Assembly (NCBI RefSeq): GCF_004364335.1
Contig: NZ_SOCR01000002.1
Coordinates: 186,001 to 250,000 of the forward strand
Length of the DNA: 64,000 bases
Source: Pseudomonas graminis
GTDB taxonomy: Bacteria > Pseudomonadota > Gammaproteobacteria > Pseudomonadales > Pseudomonadaceae
Reading direction: 5' to 3'
Part shown: positions 56,561 to 63,910 of the stretch, in pieces
How positions within the stretch are numbered: position 1 is the first letter of the stretch
Layout: each line of letters starts with the position of its first letter
Notes under the pieces: model-generated
Seen by the model: only the letters and a program-made list of their open reading frames with translations
Databases searched by the model: none
Told to the model about the DNA's origin: nothing
Translations under genes and position numbers: made by a program

Positions 56561-57223
56561 TCAGCAGTCGTCGATGTGGCGGTAGTCAGCGTTTAGCTGC
56601 GCGGCAATGTCCCGGGCGCGGCCCAGTCGAATGGGGCCGCGCTCGATGTCGATCAGCAGCACGGGGCCGCTGAACAGGGTCAGTGCGGGCATGTCCTTGA
56701 CGCGCCCATCCGTGAGAATCAGCACCCGTTGCTGTTCCGCCGGGCAGCGCTTGTTCCGCTTTGCCGACCAGTCCCCCGCTTGATGGATTGCATCCGACAG
56801 CGGCGTGCCGCCCCCCGCACCCAGCGCGTCGAGCCAGGGCTGTAACGCAGCGCTGGCTTTCAGGCCCTGATGCTGCCAGCGCGGGCCCTTGCCGCTGGCG
56901 GTGAGCAACGCCAGTCTGGCGCGCTGCCGATACGCGTCGTCGAAAACCCCCGCCAACAAACCCTTTGCCTGACTCAACGCCTGATTACGCCGGGTCGATG
57001 CCGACGTGTCGACGATCACCAGCCAGAGCTGCTCCGGCCGGCGACTGCGGGGTTGGTGTACCAGATCGCTGCGCACCCGAGGGCGGCCGCGGAGCAAGGT
57101 CGGCAACCAGGCGATCGCCCCCTTGGCACCCGCGCGGGCAGCGCCGCTTCGGCCGCCGCCCAGGGTGCCCGGTCGAGGGCTGGCATTCGCCCCCTTCGAC
57201 AGGCGGGGGCGAATGCCTAGGGC
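56561..57223 (-). CDS. chlD: VWA domain of ChlD-type chelatase subunit, read by -1 frameshift from the AAA+ gene
   Basis: A 220-residue extension in the -1 frame of the upstream AAA+ gene. The first 60 residues are a basic linker; then the VWA domain has the MIDAS motif DTSAS, later T in GGTPLSDAIH and D in LILTDGRV. No ATG in this frame lies before the VWA domain (a GTG occurs at 57076). The fused product would be 563 residues. In cobalt chelatase the AAA+/VWA protein is the CobT-like partner of CobN. The published idea that chlD genes make both CobS-like and CobT-like subunits by frameshifting fits this gene. Confidence 0.85.
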   Translation of the reverse strand, partial: ALGIRPRLSKGANASPRPGTLGGGRSGAARAGAKGAIAWLPTLLRGRPRVRSDLVHQPRSRRPEQLWLVIVDTSASTRRNQALSQAKGLLAGVFDDAYRQRARLALLTASGKGPRWQHQGLKASAALQPWLDALGAGGGTPLSDAIHQAGDWSAKRNKRCPAEQQRVLILTDGRVKDMPALTLFSGPVLLIDIERGPIRLGRARDIAAQLNADYRHIDDC

Positions 57224-57229
57224 TTTTTT
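57183..57229 (-). promoter_or_regulatory. -1 programmed frameshift signal in chlD
   Basis: On the minus strand the zero-frame codons CCA AAA AAG contain the heptamer A AAA AAG (57229-57223), the dnaX-type slippery site. Six bases later, just after the zero-frame TAG stop, is a perfect 12-base stem GCATTCGCCCCC / GGGGGCGAATGC with a ten-base loop (57183-57216). Slip site, spacing and stem have the canonical layout, and the -1 frame is open into the VWA domain. Confidence 0.9.
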
Positions 57230-58251
57230 GGCCAGTGGGGCACTTCTTTGCGAATGCCGGCCTGCACGGAGCGAGCGGGCAACTCTCCCCAACTGCCCTC
57301 GCCTTTTTCTGCTGAATCCTGCTGCGGCTGAGCACCGTCGTCGGGCTTCGGCGGACGTTGCTCTGCGGCCGCAGGCGGTTGGGACTGATGGGGCGGCTGG
57401 GGTTCGCGCCGACGGTGGCGCAAGGCGAAATCGGCCACGGCGTCGATGTCCGCCTCGGTGATATTTACACCGCCGCGCCAGGCGGCATGGGCTCGGGCTG
57501 CCCGCAACCAGACCAGATCTGCCCGCAAACCATCAACCCCGGCCGCAAAGCAACGCTCGGTGATCAGGTCCAGACTGACGTCATCCAGTTCAATGCTCGG
57601 CAACAGGCCCCGGGCGGTTTCGCAACGGGCTTTCAACGCCTGCTGTTGCGGGGCCCACTGCTCACAGAACGCTTCAGGCGCGGCGTCGAAATCCAGCCGA
57701 CGGCGAATGATCTGCCCGCGTTGCGCCGGGATCGTTTGTCCGCTCAACGCCACGTTCAGACCGAAACGGTCGAGCAGCTGCGGGCGCAGTTCGCCTTCCT
57801 CCGGGTTCATGGTGCCGATCAGCACAAAGCGCGCTGCGTGGCGATGGGACAGGCCATCTCGCTCCACCAGATTGATCCCGCTGGCGGCCACGTCCAGCAG
57901 CAGATCAACCAGATGGTCGGGCAGCAGATTGACCTCATCGACGTACAGCACACCGCCGTCCGCCTTGGCCAGGACCCCTGGCGAGAATACCGCGCGGCCT
58001 TCGCCCAGCGCCGCGTCAAGGTCCAGCGTACCGACCAGACGCTCTTCGGTCGCACCCAGCGGCAGCGTCACGAACTGACCGCTGGCCAGCAGATCCGCCA
58101 GCCCTCGGGCCAGGGTCGATTTGGCCATGCCACGCGGCCCCTCGATCAATACCCCGCCGATTTTCGGGTCGATGGCGGTGAGGCACAGGGCGAGCTTCAG
58201 GTCATCGGCACCGACGACGGCGGCCAGGGGGAAATGGGGGGTGTCGGTCAT
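57217..58251 (-). CDS. chlD: Chelatase AAA+ subunit (ChlI/CobS-like), zero-frame product of chlD
   Basis: A 344-residue AAA+ ATPase of the magnesium/cobalt chelatase type. Walker A is GPRGMAKST (about 38-46), Walker B VLYVDEVNLL, sensor GTMNPEEGELRPQLLDRFG. A charged Pro/Gln-rich tail follows residue 285. It supplies ATP hydrolysis for CobN-catalysed cobalt insertion into hydrogenobyrinic acid a,c-diamide. It ends at TAG 57217, two codons after the slip site. Its ATG overlaps the stop of a 31-codon ORF (ATGA). Operon: cobW-cobN-small ORF-chlD. Confidence 0.93.
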   Translation of the reverse strand: MTDTPHFPLAAVVGADDLKLALCLTAIDPKIGGVLIEGPRGMAKSTLARGLADLLASGQFVTLPLGATEERLVGTLDLDAALGEGRAVFSPGVLAKADGGVLYVDEVNLLPDHLVDLLLDVAASGINLVERDGLSHRHAARFVLIGTMNPEEGELRPQLLDRFGLNVALSGQTIPAQRGQIIRRRLDFDAAPEAFCEQWAPQQQALKARCETARGLLPSIELDDVSLDLITERCFAAGVDGLRADLVWLRAARAHAAWRGGVNITEADIDAVADFALRHRRREPQPPHQSQPPAAAEQRPPKPDDGAQPQQDSAEKGEGSWGELPARSVQAGIRKEVPHWPKKP

Positions 58252-58343
58252 GTTCGATTCTCGTCAAGCCAGGGGTCAGTCATGTCGTTCAAGCCGGTCA
58301 GGCGCCTTTGCAGACTGCCCGGCAGGCGTTCTTCCTGGGTCAT
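58248..58343 (-). CDS. 31-residue ORF coupled on both sides between cobN and chlD
   Basis: A 32-codon frame (MTQEERLPGSLQRRLTGLND, then MTDPWLDENRT). Its ATG overlaps the cobN stop (ATGA) and its stop overlaps the chlD start (ATGA), so the whole cobN-chlD gap is one open frame. GAAGAG lies just upstream within cobN. It may be a tiny protein or a coupling peptide that carries ribosomes from cobN to chlD. No family is recognised. Confidence 0.6.
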   Translation of the reverse strand: MTQEERLPGSLQRRLTGLNDMTDPWLDENRT

Positions 58344-63228: not shown

Positions 63229-63334
63229 GAGGACGAAAACCTCGCAGGCCGGCGGAAGCAGGCGCGCGGTTCGATTCGCCACCGGATCACCCCGCCCGGT
63301 TGTAGTGGAATTCCTCGGCCGCTGGCAGGCGGTC

Positions 63335-63534
63335 CGATTCGAGGCAGGTCTCCTGGCTCACGGCGGCCGGTCGCTGACAGGCATCGTCAGGCGACTGGCA
63401 TTCATCGCGCCTTCCCGCTCGCGCAGTGGCTGTGCAATGAAGCGGTCCGTTTACAGTTGCGGGGGCAGCTGCGGCTTGAAACCGCATTCCCTTCTTAGCG
63501 CCGGTGGTCTTAATAAAGACGGCCAGCGAACCTC
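63335..63534 (-). ncRNA. Cobalamin riboswitch upstream of cobW
   Basis: On the minus strand the B12 box AGCCAGGAGACCTGCC is at 63358-63343. Upstream are GCTGCCCCCGCAACTGTAA and GAAGGGAATGCGG, conserved parts of the class I cobalamin aptamer. P1 is formed by GGTTCG (63532-63527) with CGAATC (63341-63336). It senses adenosylcobalamin and should repress cobW-cobN-chlD when B12 is plentiful, probably by hiding the cobW ribosome binding site. Confidence 0.93.
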
Positions 63535-63600
63535 AAGTGCGCAAGGCTACGCAGTGACTGGAAGTCGGTCAATCGCGCTGTTGCAATGATTGCCACGCCA

Positions 63601-63672: not shown

Positions 63673-63685
63673 TCTCCTACACACC

Positions 63686-63910
63686 TTGTTACGGGTGCCC
63701 TTCACAGGGTGAAACGGGAAACCGGTGCGTGCAGACCTTCGGGTGTGCATCAGTCCGGTGCTGCCCCCGCAACGGTAAGCGAGTGAAGAATCAGATCCAC
63801 TGTGTCGGCAACGACATGGGAAGGGGATTCTTGAAGGCACGACGGTTGTAAAGGCTGTTGCATGTGCCCCTCGCGAGCCCGGAGACCGGCCCGACAACGT
63901 ACCATAACAA
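63686..63910 (+). ncRNA. Second cobalamin riboswitch, reading toward the right edge
   Basis: Plus-strand aptamer with CTGCCCCCGCAACGGTAAGC near 63759, a B12 box AGCCCGGAGACCGGCC at 63876-63891, and terminal pairing of TTGTTA (from 63686) with TAACAA (63905-63910). A following CCCGC/GCGGG hairpin (from 63911) may be the switching element. The window ends in AGAGGGAA, a ribosome binding site, so the controlled gene starts just outside. It is likely a B12 or cobalt uptake gene (BtuB or Cbt type), which cannot be checked here. Confidence 0.93.

Follow-up and report, generated by a model that had tools for sequence, protein, structure and literature searches.

Organization of the Cobaltochelatase Locus

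The window (the whole 64-kb stretch of Pseudomonas graminis DNA that was analyzed) carries on its reverse strand a cobW-cobN-chlD gene set preceded by a cobalamin riboswitch (Table 1), which probably governs this chlD gene. The adjacency of cobN and chlD had been claimed in an earlier reading made from the DNA letters alone (herein the sequence-only reading), and it holds; cobN scores over the TIGR02257 cut-off. A 31-codon mini-ORF (58248-58343, minus strand) joins cobN and chlD with an ATGA overlap at either end; it possibly serves translational coupling, and its sequence is not conserved in the one relative compared (L002). A second cobalamin riboswitch (63676-63908, plus strand; 96.2 bits) is divergent from the first and points to the right end of the window.

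Table 1. Features of the chlD locus (positions within the window)
Feature	Position	Strand	Remarks
-1 frame past the slip, linker and VWA domain, 220 aa	56561..57223	-	
Stimulatory stem-loop with a perfect 13-bp stem and a 10-nt loop	57182..57217	-	
Zero-frame product, ChlI-like AAA+ ATPase, 344 aa	57217..58251	-	TAG end at 57219-57217
Spacer CCCTA, 5 nt	57218..57222	-	
Slippery heptamer A_AAA_AAG, in phase	57223..57229	-	
TTG in -1 frame, SD-like GGCGAGGG upstream	57290..57292	-	one upstream candidate start in this copy
cobN, large cobaltochelatase subunit, 1254 aa	58340..62104	-	TIGR02257, 1737 bits, over cut-off
cobW, 363 aa	62107..63198	-	TIGR02475, 531 bits, over cut-off
Cobalamin riboswitch, upstream of cobW-cobN-chlD	63326..63550	-	RF00174, 96.9 bits

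The zero frame of chlD ends CCA AAA AAG CCC TAG, with a lone sense codon (CCC) between AAG and the stop. The sequence-only reading had the AAA+ frame ending at a TAG just past a slip site and a 563-residue fusion reached through the -1 frame; coordinates and frame are correct, and the fusion is made up of 343 residues of the ATPase frame and 220 of the -1 frame. The ATPase frame matches AAA_5 and AAA_lid_2 over their cut-offs and the ChlI structure 6l8d (Protein Data Bank) with an E-value of 5.6e-85; it scores 414 bits against TIGR02442 and 337 bits against TIGR02030, which does not reach the curated cut-offs of 779 and 467, respectively. The VWA domain of the -1 frame matches VWA_2 (PF13519; 35 bits, over cut-off), TIGR02442 (66 bits, under cut-off) and the BchD structure 2x31 (E 8.7e-5). 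It carries a DTSAST motif of the DxSxS type, which we take to be a metal site.

By their best-matching models (TIGR02442, TIGR02030 and TIGR02031, all under curated cut-offs), both products belong by family to the ChlI/ChlD type and not to CobS/CobT; the sequence-only reading had expected them to act as a CobS-like and a CobT-like subunit. The CobS and CobT of CobNST resemble the products encoded here in comprising an AAA+ small subunit and a VWA-bearing medium subunit with an expected CobN partnership; they differ in family, and the CobT profile (TIGR01651) has no match in the organism's own genome. That genome also lacks a second strong ChlI/ChlD match, the next best reaching only 38 bits. 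Among the 80 matches listed, the closest named relatives are Pseudomonas sp. CFBP 13711 and P. graminis (90% ATPase identity).

Conservation of the Slippery Heptamer

AAAAAAG occurs three times per strand in the window. We scanned both strands for stop-to-stop stretches of at least 150 codons ending within 31 nt of an in-phase XXXYYYZ heptamer, with the -1 frame open for at least 100 codons after it; the arrangement in chlD is unique in the 64 kb.

Relatives were collected from 298 genomes of the genus, of which 280 have a strong chlD match (best E-value above 1e-9 in the other 18), and from 198 genomes of the family, 110 of which, in 12 of 19 genera, match at E 1e-30 or better. From these matches 228 loci were fetched, giving 226 distinct Pseudomonadaceae loci, the window's own included. 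The VWA domain lies in the -1 frame in 219 of them, and each of these 219 has an in-phase heptamer (A_AAA_AAG in 218; A_AAA_AAA in L218, from another genus), although loci related by descent are not independent trials. The sequence-only reading had called for an alignment of slip sites and had named heptamer loss beside two intact ORFs as the outcome that would speak against frameshifting; no such locus, and no -1-frame VWA without the heptamer, occurs among the 226. The remaining seven loci are frame-broken or stop at a contig edge: three run out at the edge (L194, L219 and L117), L059 has a downstream and L108 an upstream indel with the heptamer sequence retained, L116 is broken by several indels and has lost the heptamer to a five-A run, and L115, whose frame is broken at another place, has lost it by substitution. 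L133 has its zero-frame stop shifted by six codons downstream and L155 has it directly after AAG; both keep the heptamer and the stem.

Per-position conservation values at the heptamer come about by selection and were set aside. CCA makes up 10.8% of proline codons and AAA 31.7% of lysine codons in the ATPase ORFs; the retention of the heptamer despite these shares lends strong support to a frameshift at this site. The A run is six long in 218 of the 222 loci; three have seven A and one has eight. Elsewhere in the ATPase ORFs (226 loci with 217,163 nt in total, not counting the final 40 nt ahead of the stop), no run reaches six A. The set of 80 named loci comprises 67 with a -1-frame VWA, nine in-frame fusions and four in which the VWA domain was not found; the 67 have A_AAA_AAG in 64 cases and A_AAA_AAA in three, all from Caballeronia.

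A Stem-Loop Downstream of the Heptamer

A perfect GC-rich stem past the heptamer, as described in the sequence-only reading, is present; its length is 13 bp rather than 12 and the spacer 5 nt rather than 6. The arms (57217-57205 and 57194-57182) fold with an energy of -29.5 kcal/mol, and the first stem base is the last base of the TAG stop codon. Compared with control windows from the same genes, perfect stems of at least 8 bp that start within 12 nt of the heptamer are enriched (182/217 loci versus 290/2170 windows), as are those of at least 12 bp (94/217 versus 6/2170), and the 40 nt from the stop onward fold with a mean energy of -23.9 kcal/mol versus -11.8 in the controls. Heptamer and stem are 5 or 6 nt apart in 200 of the 217 loci. 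No perfect helix reaches 8 bp in 35 of the 217, the folds listed there ranging from -13.2 to -25.7 kcal/mol. TAG and TGA segments differ in the first stem pair, to which the stop codon contributes its last base: it forms in 94% of the former and 9% of the latter.

Of the stem cells in 181 distinct segments, 79.2% are paired; the fraction drops to 34-47% when the partner is slid by one to three positions, and it is 75.7% (sd 0.3) in column shuffles, which barely lower it because the stem columns are conserved. One stem pair is C-G in 116 segments, T-A in 33 and T-G in 17. Double changes in the stem number 84 versus 33.3 (sd 4.6) in shuffles; as slid controls give 48-118, one of them reaching 118, this count is an unclean test of the stem and weak evidence by itself.

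Frame Constraint and Other Explanations of the Two Frames

To follow the coding frame across the site, we compared 146 loci of >72% identity. The most variable codon position is the third of frame 0 up to the heptamer and the third of frame -1 thereafter. In the first 42 codons past the slip, stops occur in none of the 146 loci in frame -1, in 53 in frame 0 and in 86 in frame +1. By both measures, coding constraint passes from frame 0 to frame -1 at the heptamer.

An alternative to frameshifting is a pair of overlapping genes, in which the VWA protein would start at TTG 57292 or at a TTG or GTG past the slip, perhaps coupled to termination at the TAG. The sequence-only reading had given the VWA domain no ATG of its own; an ATG is indeed lacking, but TTG and GTG codons, which that reading did not mention, exist. 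TTG 57292 sits 23 codons upstream of the slip, is preceded by GGCGAGGG and opens a -1 frame that runs into the VWA domain, and this copy has further TTG/GTG codons in the -1 frame at +39, +42 and +49. Such starts are common among relatives: an ATG, GTG or TTG open to the slip is found at the equivalent place in 78 of 217 loci, TTG or GTG codons cluster around +36 to +54 in many (TTG at +42 in 95/217), 87/217 have a start codon with an SD-like 4-mer upstream, and only eight have no ATG, GTG or TTG at all ahead of the VWA core. Against this, an ATG ahead of the core is absent in 153/217 loci, and in 81/217 no ATG, GTG or TTG occurs from the upstream stop to +30 codons. Of the three closest relatives, two (L002 at 93% identity and L004 at 92%) close the frame with a stop after the TTG and ahead of the slip, and L003 does not; in the copies displayed, the NTG at -23 arises from a zero-frame tryptophan codon (TGG). 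The -1 frame is, moreover, constrained past the stem and before the common downstream start codons, and separate initiation leaves the A6G site and the stem unexplained. With a start at -23 in only 78/217 loci and none up to +30 in 81/217, separate initiation is not a general route to the full linker; as such a route it is rejected on the 217 loci, and we regard the two-gene explanation as quite unlikely. Single copies may still use it, and a shorter VWA product may arise.

The fusion could also be read from an mRNA altered by transcriptional slippage on the six-A run rather than by a ribosomal shift. The run is present at the site, and transcriptional slippage on longer A runs is known in bacteria, but a run of exactly six A in 218/222 loci, together with a codon phase and a 5- to 6-nt spacing to the stem that suit ribosomal slippage, makes this highly improbable. 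That chlD is simply a broken gene or a sequencing error has next to no chance of being right: four loci do carry broken frames (L059, L108, L115 and L116), but the arrangement is shared by 219 of the 226 distinct loci, whose genomes are related yet not the same.

Proposed Decoding Mechanism

The reading that we favor, and which is strongly supported by the conserved site and the frame constraint, is that programmed -1 frameshifting yields an ATPase-only product and an ATPase-VWA fusion. It builds on the sequence signals, their conservation, the coding-frame switch at the heptamer and the gene neighborhood, all observed directly; slippage in this organism and its efficiency are what we infer from them. 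Very probably, then, chlD is decoded as follows. Ribosomes would translate the ChlI-like AAA+ domain up to A_AAA_AAG, where tRNA-Lys(UUU) in the P and A sites would slip back by one base while the 13-bp hairpin, 5 nt downstream, holds the ribosome. Those that do not slip would terminate at TAG and release the 344-aa ATPase, small-subunit-like; those that do would continue through the linker and VWA domain to give the 563-aa ATPase-VWA protein, medium-subunit-like. Both products would act with CobN in an aerobic cobaltochelatase, under the cobalamin riboswitch.

All 56 tRNA matches in the draft genome were typed, and UUU is the only lysine anticodon, with two genes. A tRNA-Lys(UUU) alone is expected to favor slippage on AAA AAG, as is established for E. 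coli. There, dnaX (tau/gamma) combines A_AAA_AAG and a downstream stem with an SD-like stimulator ~10 nt upstream, and its shift gives the short product. Heptamer and downstream stem are common to both genes; the shift in chlD makes the long product, and at the position of the dnaX stimulator chlD reads GAAGTGCCCCACTGGCC, in which no SD-like core is seen by eye.

Relation to Published Frameshifted chlD Genes

The locus is a new copy of a published system; the mechanism is already in print, Pseudomonas included. The sequence-only reading was right that chlD frameshifting had been proposed before, and E. coli reporter tests of three genes have been published as well (PMC3711429). In the sections of Antonov et al. 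(2013; PMC3711429) that treat the gene cluster, Pseudomonas is among its members, the genes are described as annotated as two adjacent genes, and three cassettes from the cluster, of unstated genera, shift frame in E. coli at 63% (11 A), 40% (9 A) and 10% (7 A). Kuznetsov et al. (2022; PMC9227772), in the passage concerned, derive small and medium subunits from one gene, citing Antonov 2020; the archaeal part is restated in PMC8211752. As portrayed in those sections of PMC3711429 and PMC9227772, the frameshifted chlD genes have the same layout as here: a ChlI-like AAA+ domain followed by a -1-frame VWA domain, an A-rich site, a stem and a cobN in the genome. The measured cassettes had 7-11 A and this copy has A6G and a strong stem; otherwise these accounts (PMC3711429) point to no substantive difference.

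A close published comparison is the shift site of the P. protegens magnesium chelatase gene, whose hairpin is quoted in the relevant passage of Atkins et al. (2016; PMC5009743). That passage describes A_AAA_AAR as under strong purifying selection in Pseudomonas and others, and suggests a regulatory role as well as triplex formation with divalent-cation binding. The site in P. protegens as given there has A_AAA_AAR and an almost identical hairpin, the stretch starting CTAGGCATCCGCCCCCG in that species and CTAGGCATTCGCCCCCG here; one stem position is C-G in P. protegens and T-A, a compensated change, in this copy. As a recoding site in a vitamin B12 gene, the one in chlD is well defined, and its near-invariance across the Pseudomonadaceae loci read recommends it as a reporter of -1 frameshifting in Pseudomonas.

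Association with cobN and the Question of a Separate Small Subunit

The frameshifted gene goes with cobN across genomes. Among 12 genomes with a frameshifted chlD match, picked for low scores or a CobT-like gene, cobN is over cut-off in 11 and split on two contigs in the twelfth; the 18 genomes of the genus without a strong match have a cobN over cut-off in one (G273, at a contig end), a diverged CobN-like protein in six and none in 11. The diverged proteins (G060, G082, G180, G185, G242 and G260, all Pseudomonas) have open frames of 1408-1491 codons, and four of these six genomes have a CobT-like gene below the curated cut-off.

The sequence-only reading had taken the shift to supply two required subunits in a set ratio, and such a role, with the short form as small and the fusion as medium subunit, seems plausible; the AAA+ domain is identical in both forms. 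Outgroups bear on this point. The nine in-frame ATPase-VWA fusions among the 80 named loci (L334-L337, L339, L342, L344, L347 and L348) come from Neptuniibacter, Motiliproteus, Marinomonas, Psychromonas and three MAGs. Each of the nine genomes has just one ChlI-like match at E 1e-25 or better, and eight have cobN (in two pieces in G488). CobS was considered as their small subunit and rejected, with a strong match (>500 bits) in just three of the nine and only G494 over the curated cut-off. Five genomes of unstated completeness (G486, G488, G489, G491 and G492) have cobN and no recognizable small subunit; with neither a second ChlI-like match nor a strong CobS match in these, not every genome visibly needs a small subunit of its own. 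In three genomes of Caballeronia, a frameshifted chlD with A_AAA_AAA is accompanied by a CobS-like gene that scores 524-538 bits and narrowly misses the cut-off of 558.55. The five in-frame outgroups and Caballeronia count against the small/medium-subunit reading of the shift. The relative P. graminis (G499) has no CobS match.

Given that cobN is accompanied in some other proteobacteria by one in-frame chlD and no recognizable small subunit, the shift might be a regulatory valve and more than a supply of an essential second subunit. In addition to the riboswitch, it would tune the ratio of ATPase-only to ATPase-VWA product in response to cobalt, polyamines or the supply of cobalamin; to this we assign a small chance. 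Outgroups with a sole in-frame fusion make the need for an ATPase-only subunit directly testable. We also looked by eye in the nine in-frame linkers for an inverted, dnaX-like slip leading to an early stop, and none of the heptamers listed is shared at equivalent positions. Only in L348 does the linker contain A_AAA_AAA with a -1 stop three codons on, and an inverted shift may be the source of a small subunit there.

A further arrangement is seen in L033 (genome G176), in which cobN and the ChlI frame form a single open frame of 1582 codons, followed by the slip site and stem. From a single start, one chain could there comprise the large and small parts and, after a shift, the medium part as well; a GTG at the cobN/ChlI junction could still start chlD.
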